From Caldilineaceae bacterium (GTDB taxonomy: Bacteria; Chloroflexota; Anaerolineae; Caldilineales; Caldilineaceae), in the NCBI GenBank assembly GCA_028819675.1, contig JAPPKT010000038.1, positions 1 through 9,976 of the forward strand: 9,976 bases of DNA, read 5' to 3'. The notes below the pieces were generated by a model. It was not told the DNA's origin. It worked only from the letters and a program-made list of their open reading frames with translations, and searched no databases. This document shows, in pieces, positions 1-9,976 of this stretch. A program made the translations under genes and the position numbers. Numbering within the stretch: position 1 is the first letter of the stretch; each line of letters opens with the position of its first letter.

Positions 1-195
1 GCGGCAGCGATGTACGGCCTTGACTATAGTTGCATTTACGACCAAGACAGAGTTGCCCTGGACGAGGCGCTTTGCGCTTCGCTTCATGGCGATAGGCCGA
101 CGATCATCGAGGTGCGCACTGATGGCGCGAGAGATGAACGTCTGCGGCGAGAACTGATCCATGCTTTGAAAGACATTCAGGAGGATATTTCGTGA
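1..195 (+). CDS. menD: MenD C-terminal fragment (SEPHCHC synthase), 5' end outside the window
   Basis: This is the last 64 codons of an open frame that enters from the left edge and stops with TGA at 193-195. The visible protein begins AAMYGLDY and contains PTIIEVRTD followed by a helical tail with LRREL. This is the layout of the MenD C-terminus, where the third thiamine-diphosphate-enzyme domain ends in a '(T)VIEV.TDR..N..LHR' type segment. MenD condenses isochorismate with 2-oxoglutarate, using ThDP and Mg2+, to give SEPHCHC, an early step of menaquinone synthesis in the cytoplasm. The catalytic parts lie upstream and cannot be examined. The identification rests on this tail plus the immediate neighbour: the stop overlaps the GTG start of menB (GTGA), so the two are translationally coupled. 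The ATG at codon 4 is an internal methionine, not the start. Confidence 0.85.
179..185 (+). promoter_or_regulatory. Shine-Dalgarno sequence of menB
   Basis: AGGAGGA lies inside the end of menD, 6-7 bases before the GTG at 192. This near-perfect ribosome binding site decides the GTG start of menB and supports coupling with menD. Confidence 0.8.
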
Positions 196-1043
196 CGATC
201 CCGCAGAGTGCAGACTGGCAGGAAGTCGCCGAGTACAGCGATATCACCTTTCACAAAGCGGACGGCATGGCGCGCATTGCCTTCGACCGGCCGGAGAAGC
301 GCAACGCATTCCGGCCCGAGACAATCGATCAGATGACGGAGGCGTTCAGAGACGTTTGGGCTGACGACCAGATTGGCGTTGTTCTGCTGACGGGCAATGG
401 TCCTTCGCCCAAGGACGGTGTCCACGCCTTCTGCGCAGGGGGCGACCAGCATATCCGCGGGCACGCCGGATATCTGAATGAACAGGGGGAGGCGCGGCTG
501 AATGTGCTGGAAATGCAGCGCATCATGCGGAACATGCCTAAGCCGATAATTGCGCTGGTCAACGGTTTCGCCATTGGGGGCGGGCATGTGCTGCACGTGA
601 TCTGCGACCTTTCGCTGGCTTCGGAAAACGCTGTCTTCGGCCAGACGGGGCCGATTGTGGGCAGCTTTGACGGCGGGCTCGGGGCGTCGTACCTGGCTTC
701 TGTTGTCGGACAGAAGAAGGCGCGGGAGATCTGGTACCTGTGCCGGCGGTATTCGGCGCAGGAAGCGTTGGAGATGGGGTTGGTGAACAAGGTGCTGCCG
801 ACGGTGGAGGCGCTGGAGGAGGAGGGCGTGGATTGGGCGCAGGAGATTCTGCGCAAGTCCCCGATTGCGATTCGCTTTCTTAAGGCAGGTTTCAACGCCG
901 ATCTGGATGGACAGACGGGTTTGCAGGTCCTAGCGGGCGACGCCACGATGCTCTTCTATATGACAGATGAGGGCAAGGAAGGGAGAGACGCTTTCAATGA
1001 GAAACGCAGGCCGGATTTTCGTCAGTTCCCTTGGAGGCCGTGA
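192..1043 (+). CDS. menB: 1,4-dihydroxy-2-naphthoyl-CoA synthase (MenB)
   Basis: MenB closes the second ring of the naphthoquinone, converting o-succinylbenzoyl-CoA to DHNA-CoA in the cytoplasm. The 283-residue protein is full length for this crotonase-fold family. Visible landmarks are FCAGGDQ (80-86, oxyanion-hole region), the flexible loop with Tyr94, [17 protein letters not shown] (124-140), [12 protein letters not shown] (151-162) with Ser158 and Asp160, and [14 protein letters not shown] near 255-268 with Tyr256. It ends in the typical [13 protein letters not shown] tail. The Gly in QTG is the pattern of bicarbonate-using 'type I' MenB such as the E. coli enzyme; type II enzymes have Asp there. 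The start is GTG, chosen because a strong AGGAGGA sits at correct spacing and GTGA overlaps the menD stop. Neighbouring menD and menE support the role. Nothing looks damaged. Confidence 0.96.
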
Positions 1044-1123
1044 GGCGGTCAAGGAGAGCACCAGCAGTTGTTGACGTCTATCTGACCTGGAATTCGCGAT
1101 CCCGTCATGTTGCCAGTCCACGA

Positions 1124-1144
1124 GGGCACCCACAAGGGGTGCCC
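1124..1144 (+). terminator. Hairpin between menB and menE, possible weak terminator or mRNA processing site
   Basis: A perfect 8-bp inverted repeat, GGGCACCC and GGGTGCCC, with a 5-base loop (ACAAG), lies about 80 bases after the menB stop. The 3' side continues CTTCGG rather than with a run of T, so it is not a classical intrinsic terminator. It may attenuate transcription, stabilise the menDB message, or have no role. The rest of 1044-1225 shows only a poor promoter-like pair for menE (TTGGAA at 1163-1168, GATAAT at 1188-1193, 19-base spacer). Confidence 0.4.
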
Positions 1145-1225
1145 CTTCGGTGGGATGGCTGGTTGGAAGGAAATGTCAGCGAGACCTGATAATGTACTCC
1201 CTCGTCAGAGTGGAATGAATTTCAT

Positions 1226-2794
1226 ATGCTTTCAATGATGAAAGACTGGTTGCGCTGGCGTGCGCTGGCCACTCCTGGCAAAGAGGCCGCAGTTTTTGAA
1301 GGGCGATCGGTCAGTTACGGTGAATTGGACTGTATAGTCGATGGTCAAGCCGCCGGCCTAGCGGCTCAGGGTATTCACCCGGGCGATAGGGTGGCGGCGT
1401 TGATGGAAAACAGCGTAGAGGCGATCGCCCTTATCCATTCTGTCGCCCGAATTGGCGCGATACTCGTGCCACTCAACACGAGGCTGACGGCCGTTGAGAT
1501 TGCGCGGCAGTTGGGCTTGGTCAAACCTGCGCTTCTGGTGGTTGACCACGGACTGGGCGGCGCGGCCGGCGGCAGCAGGGGGTGGGGGCCGGCCGCGATG
1601 GCAGAGGTTCAGTCACTCCTGGAAGTGCCAATGCATACTGTGTCGCTGACAGGGCTGACGGAGGTCGAATCTTCAGACAGGAGAGGCGCGGACAGGAAAT
1701 TGCAGGAGCCGCTTCAACAAGAAGAGCAGGTTCACTCGATTGTCTTCACGTCAGGCTCGACTGGGACACCCAAGGGTGTGCAACTCAGTTTTGCCAACCA
1801 CTTTTGGAGCGCCACCGCCTCTGCATTCCGTCTGGGCGTTGGTCCGACAGACCGCTGGTTGAGCTGCATGCCGCTTTATCATGTGAGCGGTATGGCCATA
1901 GTGTTTCGTTCCTGTCTTTACGGCACGGCGATCGTGCTTCAACGTCGTTTCGAACTGGAAGAGTTTCAACGCAGCCTGCGCGAGGATGGGGTAACGCAGA
2001 CGTCGCTGGTGCCTACGTTACTCCACCGGTTGCTGCACAGTTCTCCGGCGACGGAGTGGCCGGAGAGCCTGAGAACAGTTCTGATTGGCGGCGCGGCTGT
2101 CACGCCTGAGCTTTTGCAGACAGCCCTAGACGCATGCGTGCCTGTAACCCCGTCATACGGCCTGACTGAAGCTGCGACGCAGGCGGCTACAGCTTTGCCG
2201 GCGGATGTACGACGAAAGCCGGGAAGCGTTGGGCGGCCACTGTTGTTTACGGAGCTTTGCATCGCCGATGCGGATGGGAGTCCTATTGCTCAGGGCGAGA
2301 TAGGGGAGATTCTGGTGCGCGGCCCGCAAGTGACCAAGGCATACTACCGCAATCCAGATGCGACTGCGTCAGCTCTGCGAGAGGGCTGGTTACATACCGG
2401 CGACATGGGCCGTCTTGACGGTGACGGCGACCTGTATGTTCTGCAGCGGCGAACGGACCTGATCGTAAGCGGCGGGGAGAACATCTATCCAGTCGAAGTG
2501 GAGTCGGTGTTACGGGAACATCCTGCGGTGGCCGACGTCTGCGTTGTCGGGTTGCCGGATGAGGAATGGGGACAGCGTTGTGCGGCTGCGGTGCAGCTTC
2601 ATGGGGGGGAGAGCGTGTCCCGCGACGCGCTCCTGGCCTTCAGCCGGGGGCGGCTTGCCGGTTACAAGCAGCCTGCGGCCAAACATATTCGCTTCGTTGA
2701 GGCGTTGCCAGAAACCGCTTCGGGAAAGATCTCGCGGCGGGCAGTCAGTTCATTGTTTGAGGATATCACTCTAACGCAAAAGGAATGCCAATAA
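1226..2794 (+). CDS. menE: o-Succinylbenzoate-CoA ligase (MenE)
   Basis: MenE activates o-succinylbenzoate with ATP and joins it to CoA, supplying the substrate of MenB. The 522-residue protein has the full set of adenylate-forming (ANL) motifs: P-loop TSGSTGTPKG (175-184), YGLTEAATQ (311-319, ATP/adenylate contact), LHTGDMG (389-395), the hinge region RRTDLIVSGGENIYP (408-422) and ASGKISRR with the catalytic Lys501. The 'KPGSVGRPL' stretch after YGLTE resembles MenE more than fatty-acyl ligases, and the gene sits among men genes. A Gly-rich patch around 109-123 looks like a small lineage-specific loop. ATG 1226 is preceded by only a weak GTGGA at 1210-1214, so ATG 1235 or 1238 cannot be excluded. 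A 182-base gap with a hairpin separates it from menB. Its stop shares a base with the next gene's ATG (TAATG). Confidence 0.92.
   Translation: MLSMMKDWLRWRALATPGKEAAVFEGRSVSYGELDCIVDGQAAGLAAQGIHPGDRVAALMENSVEAIALIHSVARIGAILVPLNTRLTAVEIARQLGLVKPALLVVDHGLGGAAGGSRGWGPAAMAEVQSLLEVPMHTVSLTGLTEVESSDRRGADRKLQEPLQQEEQVHSIVFTSGSTGTPKGVQLSFANHFWSATASAFRLGVGPTDRWLSCMPLYHVSGMAIVFRSCLYGTAIVLQRRFELEEFQRSLREDGVTQTSLVPTLLHRLLHSSPATEWPESLRTVLIGGAAVTPELLQTALDACVPVTPSYGLTEAATQAATALPADVRRKPGSVGRPLLFTELCIADADGSPIAQGEIGEILVRGPQVTKAYYRNPDATASALREGWLHTGDMGRLDGDGDLYVLQRRTDLIVSGGENIYPVEVESVLREHPAVADVCVVGLPDEEWGQRCAAAVQLHGGESVSRDALLAFSRGRLAGYKQPAAKHIRFVEALPETASGKISRRAVSSLFEDITLTQKECQ
2781..2784 (+). promoter_or_regulatory. 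Shine-Dalgarno sequence deciding the start of the PhyH-family gene
   Basis: AGGA (within AAAAGGA, 2778-2784) directly abuts an ATG at 2785 but lies 9 bases before the ATG at 2794. The second spacing is usable and the first is not. The start is therefore placed at 2794, forming a TAATG stop-start overlap with menE. Confidence 0.6.
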
Positions 2795-3672
2795 TGATCA
2801 ACCAGGAGCAGATTGACTATTTCAACGAGAATGGATACCTGCGATTCGGACGCGTGTTGGATATGACCGAAGTCGAGGAATTGCGCGCTGGGTTGGACAA
2901 TGTAATCGCCATCGAAAAGGCCGGCGGCGATGACTCTGAAATAGAATTCAAGTTCGGGCACCGGCGAGGCGCGTCGATGGGGGGCGACGCCGCGGAGCAG
3001 CAGAAGCGGGTAATCGTTCAGTATGTGAATATGTTCAAGCGGGAGCCAATCTATGAGCGCCTACTCCACCACCCCGTGATATCGGGTGTGGCCTGCGCAC
3101 TATTGAACACGCCGCGTGTGCGGCTGTGGCACGATCAGATCATCTCCAAGCTGCCGGAGGAGAACGGTCATTTTCGCTTTCACCAGGACTTCTATTTGTG
3201 GCCACTGAGAGAGCCGCGCATTGTAACTTGCTGGCTGGCTCTAGACGATGCGACGCCTGAGAACGGCTGCATGCACGTGGTGCCAGGGAGCCACAAGGAT
3301 CCGCGGTTCGGCCTGGAGTCGTATGCGGCTGAACTGGCGGCGCGGGCTGAGGCCGAGGCAGAAGGACGCGAAATTGAGGAGACCGATAGGCAGAAGATGG
3401 CCTACGAACCCGCGTCGATTGGGAAGCCGGTCGAGTTGAAGGCGGGTGAATGCATGTTCCACCACTGCCTCAACTTTCACGCCACGCCGGCGAATGTGAC
3501 CAACCGGCAGCGCCGCGCCCATGTCATGATATTCATGGCGGAAGGCGTCAGGGTCAAACTGGACCAGGCATCGGGCCATCCCTTGATTCCAAACTTCACT
3601 GTAGGAGACGGTGAAGAACTGGTGGGAGAAGGTTTTCCGCTTTCGGAGCCGGAGAGCGGCCGATGGGGGTGA
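2794..3672 (+). CDS. PhyH-family Fe(II)/2-oxoglutarate-dependent dioxygenase in the men cluster
   Basis: The protein (292 residues) belongs to the phytanoyl-CoA dioxygenase (PhyH) family of non-haem iron oxygenases, which hydroxylate diverse small molecules and lipids using O2 and 2-oxoglutarate. The cupin-type metal triad is visible: His130-Gln-Asp132 in HFRFHQDFYLW and the distal His229 in NFHATPAN. Arg240 or Arg241 in RQRRAH, 11-12 residues on, would bind 2-oxoglutarate. CWLALDDATPENGCMHVVPGSH (147-168, with WLALDD and PGSH) is the family's usual core segment. There is a charged, Glu/Ala-rich helix (177-199) before the last strands. The gene is coupled to menE by TAATG and is followed 80 bases later by menH, so it is very likely co-expressed with menaquinone genes. 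Its substrate is unknown; action on a quinone or its isoprenoid tail would be speculation. PhyH paralogues are often numerous in environmental bacteria, so chance placement is possible. Confidence 0.88.
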   Translation: MINQEQIDYFNENGYLRFGRVLDMTEVEELRAGLDNVIAIEKAGGDDSEIEFKFGHRRGASMGGDAAEQQKRVIVQYVNMFKREPIYERLLHHPVISGVACALLNTPRVRLWHDQIISKLPEENGHFRFHQDFYLWPLREPRIVTCWLALDDATPENGCMHVVPGSHKDPRFGLESYAAELAARAEAEAEGREIEETDRQKMAYEPASIGKPVELKAGECMFHHCLNFHATPANVTNRQRRAHVMIFMAEGVRVKLDQASGHPLIPNFTVGDGEELVGEGFPLSEPESGRWG

Positions 3673-3752
3673 TATTCAAGCGGGCGGCAAGGGCCGTACC
3701 AGAATGCCGCTCCAGCCGCGTTGGCGGGCAGTCAGGTTGCGGGACAATCTGA

Positions 3753-4607
3753 GTGTCTGTGTCTACGACCCTGGTTCAATCGTACCATTTGCACAGTTGG
3801 GGCAGCAAAGGGGATCCTCCTGTCCTGCTCCTGCACGGATTCACAGGGCATGGAGGAAGCTGGGCCGGACTTGGGCAGAGGTTTGCGGCGGCTGGATACA
3901 ATGTTCTGGCGCCGGACCTGCTTGGACACGGTCGTTCGGCTCACCCCAGTGATGCGACCCGCTACGGGATGGCCCACGCCGCCGCGGACCTGAATTCACT
4001 ACTGGATGAATCGCCAATAGAGGCCGTCCATCTGCTGGGCTATTCGATGGGTGGGCGGCTCGGGCTTTTCTTCGCTCTCAGCTGCCCGGAACGAGTTCGG
4101 ACACTGAGCCTAGTGAGCGCGTCGCCAGGTATCGCGTCGACTGCGGAACGGGATGAACGACGCGACAGAGACGATGCGCTGGCCGACCAGATCGAACGGG
4201 ACGGTATTGGGGCGTTTGTGGACCATTGGGAGTCTCTGCCGATGTGGGCGAGCCAGCGGCGGTATCTCTCTTCGGAGCAGCACCAGCAGTTGCGATCGCA
4301 GCGTTTGCGGAACCTTCCTGACGGACTCGCAAACAGCCTCAGGGGAATGGGAACGGGCAACCAACCTGCTCTTCACGAGAAACTGCCCACGTTGTCGATG
4401 CCTACTCTGCTCATTGCCGGAGCCGAGGACGAGAAGTTCGCCGACATCAACCGGCAGATGGAGCGAAGAATTCCTCAGGCGCGTCTGGTCATCCTCCCTA
4501 TGGCCGGTCATGCGGTCCAACTAGAGAGGCCGCGGGCATTTGAGCGGACGGTGCTTGAGTTTTGGCAGTCATATGAGGTTTCGCGACCAAAGGCGAGCAA
4601 GACATAA
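3753..4607 (+). CDS. menH: SHCHC synthase-type alpha/beta hydrolase (MenH)
   Basis: MenH removes pyruvate from SEPHCHC (the MenD product) to give SHCHC. The 284-residue protein has the alpha/beta-hydrolase plan: LLLHGFTGHGGSW (25-37, oxyanion region), PDLLGHGRS (54-62), the nucleophile elbow GYSMGGR with Ser98, Asp226 in GAEDEKF, and His253 in AGHAVQLERP. GYSMGGR together with GHGRS is characteristic of MenH among hydrolases, and the neighbourhood agrees. The start is GTG at 3753, directly after an in-frame TGA (3750-3752), so the gene cannot begin earlier; GTG 3759 is the other option. A weak GGGA lies about 9 bases upstream. An 80-base gap without its own obvious promoter separates it from the dioxygenase gene, so read-through from menE is likely. 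Other hydrolase roles remain possible but less likely. Confidence 0.88.
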   Translation: MSVSTTLVQSYHLHSWGSKGDPPVLLLHGFTGHGGSWAGLGQRFAAAGYNVLAPDLLGHGRSAHPSDATRYGMAHAAADLNSLLDESPIEAVHLLGYSMGGRLGLFFALSCPERVRTLSLVSASPGIASTAERDERRDRDDALADQIERDGIGAFVDHWESLPMWASQRRYLSSEQHQQLRSQRLRNLPDGLANSLRGMGTGNQPALHEKLPTLSMPTLLIAGAEDEKFADINRQMERRIPQARLVILPMAGHAVQLERPRAFERTVLEFWQSYEVSRPKASKT

Positions 4608-6548: not shown

Positions 6549-7919
6549 CTATGCCCCGGTGGGCTCCACATTCCAATTCTTCGGCGCGCGTAAGAAGCCC
6601 TCGACCTCTGTGAAGAGCTCTGGCGAGAGCAGATCTCTGAAGAAATACCAGTTGAAGACAGAGAGCTTGTTGTCCTGGAGTGAGGCGCGCAGAATCTCTA
6701 CGGCATGGCGAAGGTTGCGGTGCAGGTGCTCCCGATGGCCGCCGATCCCCCATCCTAGCGCCGCCAGCCCCAGAACGAGTGGATCCCGCCGCGTATTCTG
6801 CTGTCCGAGCAGATTCAAAGCTACATGCAGTCCCTGGCGCAGTTCGTCCGAGAAGTCGCTACTGTCTGGGTTGGCCCCTTGTTCTGCGTTGTCGGTGGCG
6901 GAGCGGCCGGTGCCGTCCTCGTCGGACGCTGGGCGGGGCTGGAGGGCGTCCAGATAGTAGTGGGCCAGGATCCAGTCACCGACCGACGAGAGAGTCACAT
7001 CTTCGAGGGGAACCTGTGTGACGCGCCTCCATTCTGTCGCAGCGCCCTGGGGGTCGCCGGAGTAGTAGCCGGACAGGCCGCGCCAGAATCCCTGGGATAC
7101 GGATGAGCTTTCGCGGTTGAGCGCCCTTTGCGCCAAGCGGCCCTGGCTGTTCAATACGAGCGGGCGATAGAGCAGGTGCCAGCGGTCGCTATAGGCGTCG
7201 GACACTCTGGCAGCCATACCGAAAGCATCGGCAGCTTCTTGCCAGCGCTGCCTTTCCAACTCCACGCAGCTGCGCAGAAAGTGAAGGAGCCCAAACTGGA
7301 GTGATACCTGGTTGGTTTCGCTCTCACTGGTCAGCCGCTCTTTGACCTGAATCTGCACGTCTACGTCTTCGACGAGTGAGTCCGACAGGCCCTGTGAACG
7401 GAATAGACGCTGCAGCTCGGATAGCAGTGACTGCCTAACTCCGTCGGCTTCGTCGATCTTGTCGTCGTCGATCAGGATGGAGAAGAGTAACCAACGCAAG
7501 TCCACGTCGAAGGGAAGATCGTCCGACTCGGAGCGGACGATTCCGGCCGCTTCTTCGCAGCGGCCTTGCCACCAGTAGGCGCGTGCCTGGTTCTCCCGCC
7601 ACAGTGACTTGGCGTCTTCGCTCAGGATCTCAAAGAGCGCGTCATCGATTGCGGCCATCTCTTCCAGCCGGTTGCGCCTGGCGTAGTAAGACTGCAGGCC
7701 CAGCACACTCTGATCCAGGATGCGTTGCAGCCTTTCGTCCTGGGCGTTTCGTCGCGCCTGCGGCAGAGCGGCCAGACGCTCGATCAAGAAACCGTACTTA
7801 GCCAAGGCCTCGTCGTTGCCCTGTCGTGAAAGGGCCACGGCCTCGGCGTGCAAGGCTTCCCAAGAACCCTTTAGCGCGGCTGCGCTGCCTGATGTGCGCG
7901 TGTCGGTAGTCATCGACAT
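6549..7919 (-). CDS. TPR-like helical protein of unknown function
   Basis: I do not recognise a named family. The 456-residue protein is soluble-looking and acidic, with no signal peptide or membrane segment. It is almost wholly helical and has repeated TPR-like units (Trp/Tyr, Ala, Gly-x-x-x-E-A spacing): around 75-98, 109-130 (ARAYWWQGRCEEAAGIV), 140-165, 212-240 and 278-300 (GFWRGLSGYYSGDPQGAATEW). A low-complexity, Asp/Ser/Gly-rich linker (about 327-357) separates this array from a C-terminal helical block that ends in FNWYFFRDLLSPELF. TPR arrays mediate protein-protein contacts, so a scaffold or accessory role is the general expectation. It lies 82 bases downstream of the chelatase gene on the same strand and may share its transcript. 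The start is uncertain: ATG 7919 or ATG 7913, neither with a strong ribosome site. Confidence 0.75.
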   Translation of the reverse strand: MSMTTDTRTSGSAAALKGSWEALHAEAVALSRQGNDEALAKYGFLIERLAALPQARRNAQDERLQRILDQSVLGLQSYYARRNRLEEMAAIDDALFEILSEDAKSLWRENQARAYWWQGRCEEAAGIVRSESDDLPFDVDLRWLLFSILIDDDKIDEADGVRQSLLSELQRLFRSQGLSDSLVEDVDVQIQVKERLTSESETNQVSLQFGLLHFLRSCVELERQRWQEAADAFGMAARVSDAYSDRWHLLYRPLVLNSQGRLAQRALNRESSSVSQGFWRGLSGYYSGDPQGAATEWRRVTQVPLEDVTLSSVGDWILAHYYLDALQPRPASDEDGTGRSATDNAEQGANPDSSDFSDELRQGLHVALNLLGQQNTRRDPLVLGLAALGWGIGGHREHLHRNLRHAVEILRASLQDNKLSVFNWYFFRDLLSPELFTEVEGFLRAPKNWNVEPTGA

Positions 7920-8001: not shown

Positions 8002-8973
8002 CTAGCCGCCGATTTCCCGTTTTACGGTATTGAGAAGGGTGTCGGCCCGCAGCTCAGGCAGATTATAGCAGACGCCGCCCATTTGCTCGGCCAGGGCCTG
8101 TGCCAGCCCACGATCGAAGGCCATGTGCTCCATGTTGATTACGATGGTGCGGACGTCCTCGCTGTCGAAGAGGGAGGCCATTTTCATTGCCTCTTCCTGG
8201 GCGGGCATGCCGGTCATGCTTACGTTGCCGGCACCGTCGGTCAGCAGCATCACCAGCGGCCGGAGCTCCGGGTCGCGGCGCTGGGCGTTTTCGACTACCT
8301 GCCATGTTGCAAGGAGACCGCTACTGAGAGGCGTTTTGCCCCCCACGGGGAGATCCTTGAGGGCCCTTTCCGCCAGTTCGACGCTATTGGTGGGCGGCAG
8401 AACGACTCGAGCCTTGTCGCGCTGGAAGACGACCAGCCCGACCTGGTCCCGGCGCTGATAGGCTTCGACCAACAGGCTGAAAATGGCGCCTTTTGTGGCT
8501 TCCATCCGTTCGCTGGCCGCCATCGACCAGCTGGCGTCCACGACGAAGAGGATGAGATTGCCTGTACGGCGGACGCGGATTTTGCGCTGCAGATCGGACA
8601 TGCGCAACTGCAAGGCAAGGTCGCTCTCCCCGCTTGCGTGCCGTTCCTTCTGGTGGGGGGCGGCGTTACGCAAGGTGGCGTCGAAGGCGACGTCTTCGTA
8701 ATTTTCGTTGGCTGGACGCGCTTTAATGTAGCGGCCGCGCTTGCGGTCGGTCCGGCTGTAGGAGCGTTTGCCGGATTTTTCGCGCGTCATCTTGTCGAGC
8801 GGCGTATCGAGCTTACGTGCTTCGAAGACCTCACCGACGTCGACCGGTTTGCGGGCTCCCTTCTCGTCTCCGGGTGATGAACTCTGTTGGGGAGCTGCGT
8901 CCGGCTGTGCTACGCCGCCTTCACCGCTCTCCGGCGAGGAGTCTAGCTCCTCTGAGTCATCACCCTCTTCACT
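8002..8973 (-). CDS. chlD: ChlD-type chelatase medium subunit: acidic linker and VWA domain, reached by -1 frameshift from the upstream ATPase frame
   Basis: This is the second half of the chelatase gene, in the -1 frame relative to 8943-9976. After the A8 run it reads SEEGDDSEEL, a long Asp/Glu/Ser/Pro linker, then VGEVFEARKLDTPLDK, MTREKSGKRSYSRTDRKRG and a VWA/integrin-I domain. Counting from the Met at 8790, the MIDAS metal site is DASWS (85-89), Thr153 (GGKTPLS) and Asp185 (LLTDGAGN). Joined to the ATPase half it gives about 655 residues in the window, a normal ChlD length with a short N-terminus missing. ChlD is the medium subunit that couples the ATPase ring to the large metal-inserting subunit (ChlH or CobN). 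No ATG, GTG or TTG exists in this frame between the preceding stop (9022-9024) and ATG 8790, which itself lacks a ribosome site and lies inside conserved-looking sequence. Independent translation would lose the linker. A CobN partner is not in view. Confidence 0.85.
   Translation of the reverse strand, partial: SEEGDDSEELDSSPESGEGGVAQPDAAPQQSSSPGDEKGARKPVDVGEVFEARKLDTPLDKMTREKSGKRSYSRTDRKRGRYIKARPANENYEDVAFDATLRNAAPHQKERHASGESDLALQLRMSDLQRKIRVRRTGNLILFVVDASWSMAASERMEATKGAIFSLLVEAYQRRDQVGLVVFQRDKARVVLPPTNSVELAERALKDLPVGGKTPLSSGLLATWQVVENAQRRDPELRPLVMLLTDGAGNVSMTGMPAQEEAMKMASLFDSEDVRTIVINMEHMAFDRGLAQALAEQMGGVCYNLPELRADTLLNTVKREIGG
8936..8952 (-). promoter_or_regulatory. Hairpin downstream of the slippery site, with the 0-frame stop in its loop
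   Basis: On the - strand GAGGAG (8952-8947), loop CTAGA, CTCCTC (8941-8936) form a perfect 6-bp stem. The 0-frame TAG (8945-8943) is in the loop. The stem begins 20 bases after the A8 run, farther than the 5-9 bases typical of frameshift-stimulating structures, so its role in frameshifting is uncertain. Confidence 0.4.
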
Positions 8974-9976
8974 TTTTTTTCCGTTGTCGCCGCGTCGCCG
9001 TCCGCCTCTTCCATCGATTCTTCATTTTCCTCGGCTTCGGCGCGGGCCTGACGCATGTTGGCCTCGAGTTGCTCAGGTTGTAGCGCGGTATCCTGGAATG
9101 GCTGTTTCTTCATGCGGTGAGGAAGCGCCAGTTCTGCCGACATGAGGATATCCCTGTCGGTGATGGCATCTCGACCTTCAAATGCGGCCTGGGCTCGGGC
9201 TGTATTGAGAATGACGAGGTCGGCCCGGTGCCCGTCGACGCTGAAGCTGCTGGTGAGGGCGGCAATCGTGTAGAGATCTTTGTCTGTGTAACCGACGCTG
9301 TCATAGCGGCGACGGGCTTTTATGATTCGCTCACCCAGACTTTTTGCTTCGTCGGCAAAGTCTTCGAAGAAGCGGTCTGAATCCTGCTCAAAGCGCGTCC
9401 GCCGGCGCAAGATTTCCACGCGGGCGCGAGGCTCGTCGATGCCGACGACGTCAACGGCGTGTGCAAAACGGTCCAGCAGTTGGGGGCGCAGGTCGCCTTC
9501 TTCAGGGTTCATGGAGCCGACGAGAACAAAGCGGGCGGGATGCTGGACGCTAATGCCCTCGCGCTCGACGACGTTGACGCCCATGGCCGCGCTGTCCAGA
9601 AGCAGGTCGACAACGTGGTCGTCGAGGAGGTTTACCTCGTCGACGTAGAGGATTCCGCGGTTGGCGGCGGCGAGAATGCCTGGCTCGAAGTGGCGTTCGC
9701 CTTGACGAATTGCCTTCTCAATGTCCAGCGTGCCGACGACCCGATCCTCTGTGGCGCTGACGGGAAGGTCGATGAAAGGCGTGTTTCGCTGTCCGACTTT
9801 CAGTTCTCCATTGTGGGCCCCTGCCTCGCAGACATGGCAGAGACCGAGCGTGTCGTCCCGGTAACAGGCAAAGGGGCATCCATCTACCGCTTCGATTGCC
9901 GGCAACAGGGCAGCCAGGCCCCGGGCGGCGGTCGACTTGGCCGTGCCGCGTTCGCCCCTGATCAGCACACCGCCGA
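8943..9976 (-). CDS. chlD: ChlI/ChlD AAA+ ATPase domain: 0-frame product (small-subunit-like) and N-terminal half of ChlD; 5' end outside the window
   Basis: This is the AAA+ motor of a Mg/Co-chelatase (ChlI/CobS class side of ChlD). The frame enters from the right edge with GGVLIRGERGTAKST. Counting from the Val codon at 9968, Walker A is GERGTAKST (5-13), Walker B ILYVDEVNLLDD (106-117), sensor 1 GSMNPEEGDLRPQLLDRF (151-168) with candidate Arg fingers Arg161/Arg167, and sensor 2 GHRAD (Arg248). A four-Cys cluster (31, 35, 44, 47) follows Walker A, as in many ChlD-type cobaltochelatase proteins. The frame ends TEKKVKRVMTQRS then TAG at 8943-8945, giving a ChlI-like protein of roughly 341 residues plus the missing N-terminus. 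The C-terminal ~40 residues turn acidic, and the VWA domain follows in the -1 frame after an A8 run. So this product is probably the small subunit and the frameshifted one the medium subunit. The apparent start at 9968 is an internal GTG. Confidence 0.9.
   Translation of the reverse strand, partial: GGVLIRGERGTAKSTAARGLAALLPAIEAVDGCPFACYRDDTLGLCHVCEAGAHNGELKVGQRNTPFIDLPVSATEDRVVGTLDIEKAIRQGERHFEPGILAAANRGILYVDEVNLLDDHVVDLLLDSAAMGVNVVEREGISVQHPARFVLVGSMNPEEGDLRPQLLDRFAHAVDVVGIDEPRARVEILRRRTRFEQDSDRFFEDFADEAKSLGERIIKARRRYDSVGYTDKDLYTIAALTSSFSVDGHRADLVILNTARAQAAFEGRDAITDRDILMSAELALPHRMKKQPFQDTALQPEQLEANMRQARAEAEENEESMEEADGDAATTEKKVKRVMTQRS
8973..8980 (-). other. A8 slippery sequence, probable -1 programmed ribosomal frameshift site in chlD
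   Basis: On the - strand the 0 frame reads ACG GAA AAA AAA GTG. The last A of GAA plus two AAA codons makes A_AAA_AAA, the phase that allows both tRNAs to slip back one base. Reading then resumes AGT GAA GAG, entering the linker/VWA frame. Eight A residues could alternatively allow RNA polymerase to add one A, giving the same frame. A purine-rich AAGAGG (9010-9005) lies 24 bases upstream, farther than the ~10 bases usual for a stimulatory Shine-Dalgarno. Confidence 0.8.

Follow-up and report, generated by a model that had tools for sequence, protein, structure and literature searches.

Results

Organization of the locus

The DNA analysed here (the window, 9,976 nucleotides) carries on its minus strand a chlD-type gene whose two halves lie in different frames. 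A ChlI-like ATPase half and a half containing a linker and a VWA domain are joined at a run of eight adenines (A8). The 0-frame ORF encodes the AAA+ ATPase half (8943..9976, minus strand). It shows 343 residues, and its 5' end lies beyond the end of the window; taking the start of the gene in L001, the nearest relative, the short 0-frame product comes to 372 residues. The A8 run (8973..8980, minus strand) is read in the 0 frame as GAA AAA AAA GTG, which puts A_AAA_AAA in the phase for tandem -1 slippage. The short product ends with a nine-codon tail, VKRVMTQRS, and its stop (8943..8972, minus strand; TAG at 8943-8945). From the run, the -1 frame stays open for 323 codons (8002..8972, minus strand) and encodes the acidic linker and the VWA domain of the long ChlD-like product, of which 334 + 323 = 657 residues are visible in the window. 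A continuous 0-frame long product, the polarity seen in dnaX, is not found in the window gene. A preliminary description of this DNA had reported the two ChlD halves in different frames with A8 at the switch point and a 0-frame stop nine codons later. Its coordinates, A count, phase and tail are all correct, and its estimate of about 655 visible residues agrees with our count.

The assignment of the two halves is based on structure and model matches. The ATPase half matches PDB chain 1g8p (E 4.8e-84) and the VWA part matches chain 2x31 (E 2.3e-21), each a magnesium-chelatase subunit. The two halves align in the correct order to TIGR02442, with separate scores of 435.1 and 256.8; the cut-off of 779.45 applies to a full-length protein, and the window gene is split over two frames and truncated where the window ends. 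The ATPase half matches TIGR02442 and TIGR02030, both below cut-off. Four cysteines in this half (residues 33, 37, 46 and 49 in the first row of the alignment) are invariant in 11 sequences and are possibly metal-binding.

Directly after chlD is a gene for a 456-residue protein (6549..7919, minus strand) that matches nothing in Pfam or NCBIfam. In 17 of the 21 family loci compared, the window included, a relative of this gene is located near chlD. Upstream of chlD, L122 and other family loci contain a divergent ECF sigma factor, a zf-HC2 (anti-sigma-like) protein and a repeat-rich membrane protein. Each of these three and the 456-residue protein is found in 15 to 17 of the 21 family loci. Among 80 named loci of the class, three of the four neighbours occur only in L041 and L043 and the fourth in none. 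Being nearly absent outside the family, the four were rejected as defining the chlD system. Elsewhere in the window, menaquinone-type menB and menE, a PhyH-type dioxygenase and menH are arranged in a row (192-4607, plus strand). Rfam and tRNA scans of the window found nothing.

Conservation of the run and its phase

We searched 41 related genomes, the nearest of which shares 45% of sampled 31-mers with the window, and kept the best 30 loci. Among these best 30, 27 have the two-frame -1 layout and three are fused. Layout, A8 and phase are identical to the window in all 15 same-genus loci and in all eight other family loci, so the A count and phase of the preliminary description recur in assembled relatives. 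The genus loci L005, L009 and L015 come from one-contig genomes. A8 is also present in 10 of 10 further family loci, in which run length alone was recorded; altogether, run lengths come from 33 of the 40 family genomes that have the gene. Named relatives are mostly Chloroflexota of the class Anaerolineae, and the best match is a Caldilineaceae MAG at 75% identity.

The codons of the run are fixed more than chance would predict. GAA AAA AAA never varies in 16 genus sequences, whereas none of the 12 other all-lysine columns is fixed as AAA and only two of the 34 all-glutamate columns are fixed as GAA. The run and its phase stay constant while other lysine and glutamate codons vary, a check that the preliminary description had proposed. 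Judged by codon position, both halves of the gene are under purifying selection.

The same arrangement extends to the wider class. The 80 named loci include 63 scored as -1, eight fused, two scored as +1, six without a C half nearby and one with an in-frame stop; L117 (scored -1) and L116 (scored +1) are really separate genes. When the window, L001-L030 and L041-L120 are pooled, 91 loci are scored as -1, some of them repeats of one contig. An A7-A10 run is located in the overlap in 89 of these 91, and all 89 (not deduplicated) contain A_AAA_AAA in phase. L094, with an A10 run, is a 90th locus beyond those 89, and L117 has no run. This phase is automatic for A9 and A10 and is informative only for A7 and A8. 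All nine A7 loci are in the only one of three phases that gives A_AAA_AAA, and all 32 A8 loci, mostly from one family, are in phase as well. A +1 stop occurs within 10 codons in 53 of 58 deduplicated two-frame loci. One Anaerolineae locus, L084, has an A9 run with its C half in the +1 frame.

Probable production of two subunits from one gene

We consider the window gene, with a probability of about 0.88, to be an fs-chlD gene that gives ChlI-like and ChlD-like subunits by -1 slippage. Normal decoding would end nine codons past A8 and produce a ChlI-like AAA+ subunit of about 372 residues. In a share of events, a -1 slip on A_AAA_AAA would produce a ChlD-like subunit of about 686 residues, composed of the same ATPase half, the acidic linker and the VWA domain. 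The two products would share the motor domain and probably assemble into one mixed ring, with their ratio set by the slip rate. From these sequences we infer that slippage occurs in this host. The preliminary description had proposed a further fs-chlD instance, one gene with two chelatase-type products made through -1 slippage, and this proposal stands; it matches fs-chlD as described in PMC9227772 and PMC3711429.

Downstream stimulatory RNA structure is usual in fs-chlD, according to PMC9227772. In the window, a 6-bp hairpin, GAGGAG-CUAGA-CUCCUC, is predicted 20 nt past the run (8936..8952, minus strand). The structure 3' of the run is no better than shuffles in three computations (z -1.04, -0.36 and -0.7), and RNAalifold over 30 family sequences gives no consensus structure and no pair. 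A stimulator as in the published cases is no more than a possibility for the window, and we do not put the predicted hairpin forward as one: it is at shuffle level and has no family consensus. Its inner helix is paired in 63% of cells and has some both-side changes; when the helix is slid by +1 covariation is higher, and at +3 as many cells are paired. The outer helix is paired in 87% of cells and has no both-side changes.

Among 58 deduplicated loci, downstream folding relative to shuffles varies with run length. The mean z is -2.90 for A7 (n=7), -0.91 for A8 (11), -0.30 for A9 (36) and -0.99 for A10 (4); control stretches taken from the A7 genes average -0.44. A7 sites differ from the rest at p 2e-4. 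Over 116 rows, z <= -2 is reached in 12 of 18 A7 sites and in 6 of 98 longer runs. Strong hairpins are located just downstream of the A7 sites in L050, L061, L063, L071, L078, L087 and L165, and A9-A10 sites are mostly without them; the A7 sites of L104, L098/L099, L171 and L190 have no strong hairpin. A tree-aware test had only four independent pairs on starred branches, a number at which a sign test cannot reach 0.05. In E. coli, fs-chelatase cassettes with 11, 9 and 7 adenines gave 63, 40 and 10% frameshifting, according to PMC3711429. A hairpin seems to assist the weak short runs, which fits these efficiencies. With only four independent comparisons on the tree, we keep this link as a tendency.

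These data also bear on which enzyme slips. RNA polymerase could slip on the A-run and make both products from mixed mRNAs, as in Thermus dnaX, a known case of this kind (PMC5009743). The A8-A10 runs of most loci and the scarce downstream structure at the A9 sites of class relatives are consistent with such a mechanism. The A7 loci argue against it. All of them are in tandem-slip phase, and their tendency to strong hairpins points to ribosomes at least there, an argument limited by the weak hairpins of L104 and L098 and by the tree-aware test. Polymerase slippage is thus the most serious competitor, if an unlikely one, and ribosomal slippage is the likely mechanism. The near +1 stop was considered as a mark of polymerase slippage and rejected, as it is found at short and long two-frame runs alike (p 0.17).

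A different possibility is gene fission, with a ChlI-like protein, a separately started VWA protein and no frameshift. An ATG at 8790 opens a VWA ORF of 262 residues, and some of the 16 genus sequences have potential starts further upstream, within the linker (GTG at +59 in four, ATG or GTG at +143 in seven, TTG at +161 in two), so internal starts are conceivable in those relatives. In the window, however, the -1 frame contains no ATG, GTG or TTG between 8972 and 8791 (minus strand), and the ATG at 8790, +182 from the run, is the first possible start. About 60 linker residues upstream of it are conserved in the -1 frame. From the 0-frame stop to this ATG, the variable columns in the 16 genus sequences are distributed over -1-frame codon positions 1, 2 and 3 as 5, 1 and 38. 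As the linker is conserved as protein and, in the window, lacks a start before +182, translating it requires a frame switch. Plain fission would keep neither these residues nor A8, and we consider it very improbable. That an indel from sequencing or assembly splits what is one continuous gene, or that the gene has decayed, hardly deserves consideration: the site is a homopolymer and fused homologues exist, but the same A8 is found in every same-genus locus, three of them from one-contig genomes, and both halves show purifying selection by codon position.

The gene layout, the conserved run with its phase and the selective constraint on the linker as read in the -1 frame can be seen directly in the alignments.

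Predicted opposite polarity in single-frame relatives

Our class sample contained 396 genomes. Among the matches listed, the whole model lies in one frame at 57 places, the partial match G137:C58 having been left out. The linkers of these 57 distinct single-frame chlD genes contain one A7-A10 run in 42 cases and none in 15, again among the matches listed; the linker regions of L163-L219 are the source of these opposite-polarity runs. In the same listed set, 41 of the 42 run genes have A_AAA_AAA in phase, which is automatic for A9-A10, and one has A_AAA_AAG. The A7 runs listed are in phase in nine of nine cases. A -1 stop is located within 10 codons in 42 of the 42 listed run genes, compared with 16.7% of other linker positions, and the remaining sequence of the 57 listed genes (91,374 nt) contains a single A7 run. 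In single-frame genes, the long form would be the product of normal decoding and the short form that of -1 slippage.

Polarity changes at least 13 times on a quick tree of 132 rows drawn from two differently drawn sets, and well-supported branches force at least six changes per label. Like an earlier tree, the polarity and hairpin trees were built without L003-L014, L041 and L043; they are also without L084, L102, L106, L113, L116, L117, L118 and L120 and eight fused-locus duplicates. The rows dropped are long, +1 or separate-gene rows; L120 was scored as -1. Entire clades have a single polarity, a group of eight A7 genes being one example, and assembly errors of one base therefore cannot account for all the flips, although single cases may be errors. 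The off-frame stops near the run may in part be inherited from a two-frame ancestor in which a one-base change fused the gene. The distribution of polarities suggests that the supply of two products, and not one direction, is what selection keeps. A literature search, which did not extend to the main 2020 Mol Biol Evol paper, found no account of flipped chlD polarity.

CobN and B12 genes in relatives

B12 genes were counted in relatives only, in 17 genus genomes and 46 family genomes. CobN (PF02514) is present in 11 of the 17 genus genomes, the G012 copy having an internal TAA, and was not found in the other six. Three corrin ring synthesis genes were searched for in the 17 genomes: CbiC was found in none, CobJ was over the cut-off in none and CobB/CbiA was found in none at E <= 1e-20. 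A weak partial CobJ match in all 17 was taken for another methylase. As these three are absent, bacteria of this genus probably cannot make the corrin ring by known routes. A metal-free corrinoid taken up from outside may be the substrate of their CobN. In G010 (L161:2299-12081), CobN is located beside CbiB, a corrinoid adenosyltransferase and cobyric acid synthase, each above its model cut-off. The other six genus CobN loci compared (L151-L155 and L162) have similar adjoining ORFs, not all of them in each. G010 itself has CobN and no chlD match.

Apart from the fs-chlD gene itself, the strongest match to the ATPase half in the genus reaches 24.3 bits at 27% identity, and partial TIGR02442 matches reach about 50 bits. 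These are read as MoxR-like proteins. CobS was not found in the 46 family genomes at E <= 1e-20. Given these weak matches and the absence of CobS, the fs-chlD gene appears to be the only clear source of I and D subunits where CobN exists, and the subunit pair would probably serve CobN there. Three family genomes, G022, G057 and G061, have a second ChlI-like gene at 50-52% identity, which is on the CobN contig in G057 and G022.

A chlD-type gene at >= 67% identity is present in 40 of the 46 family genomes. CobN is over the cut-off in 18; both genes are found in 15, and the chlD-type gene is found without CobN in 25. These 25 include G004, a one-contig genome that is 99% complete; some of the others are incomplete. 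CbiC is present in three of the 46 family genomes, two of them with the chlD-type gene. By these counts, the fs-chlD gene is not tied to CobN. In relatives without CobN, the subunit pair would have to have another client.

The preliminary description had placed the gene with cases described in cobalamin producers that have cobN and chlD but no chlI. The relatives agree with it in having no clear second I or D source and in the presence of CobN in part of the genus. They depart from it in that six genus genomes are without CobN, CbiC is absent from all 17, and 25 of the 40 gene-bearing family genomes have no CobN over the cut-off. Judged from gene content, a simple B12 account does not hold for the lineage as a whole.

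Discussion

Our analysis places the window gene, on its sequence, within the published fs-chlD genes as a newly added member from a Caldilineaceae-like lineage. In PMC9227772 and PMC3711429, fs-chlD is likewise a chlD gene whose halves are divided by an A-rich site, in most cases with a -1 shift, and that gives a short ChlI-like and a long ChlD-like product; the portions consulted do not name a Caldilineaceae-like lineage. PMC9227772 reports fs-chlD in Chloroflexi and in 'stage 1' species without B12 or chlorophyll pathways, and describes the role of ChlI/ChlD in the absence of a large subunit as unknown. The genus differs from the fs-chlD accounts in that CobN is present in only part of it, beside late corrinoid genes, and the ring synthesis genes were not found. 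The AAA+ and VWA halves resemble the CobNST and ChlIDH chelatases through their matches to 1g8p and 2x31. Unlike those systems, the genus has no clear separate I or D gene, and the large subunit was not found in six of 17 genomes.

In E. coli dnaX, the slip yields the short form. The slip product of the window gene would be the long one. The two genes are otherwise alike, in that slippage on an A-run in one AAA+ gene gives long and short subunits, tau and gamma in dnaX (PMC5009743) and the predicted ChlD-like and ChlI-like products here. A dnaX-like layout is found in 42 of the 57 single-frame chlD relatives among the matches listed.

On balance, we favour a broader reading for the class. The chlD A-run of Anaerolineae would be a two-product switch, and one-base changes of the run could reverse its polarity over evolutionary time while both products are kept; A7 runs would tend to be backed by a hairpin, and A9-A10 runs would not. 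Its retention in many genomes without CobN or B12 synthesis genes would reflect a chelatase-like motor with a second client.

With the window gene, a recoding system already described would reach a lineage many of whose genomes do not fit the usual explanation, a partnership with CobN in B12 producers. Such genomes offer a natural test of what ChlI and ChlD do alone. Because the polarity flips point to selection for a supply of both subunits, the subunit ratio would be directly testable.
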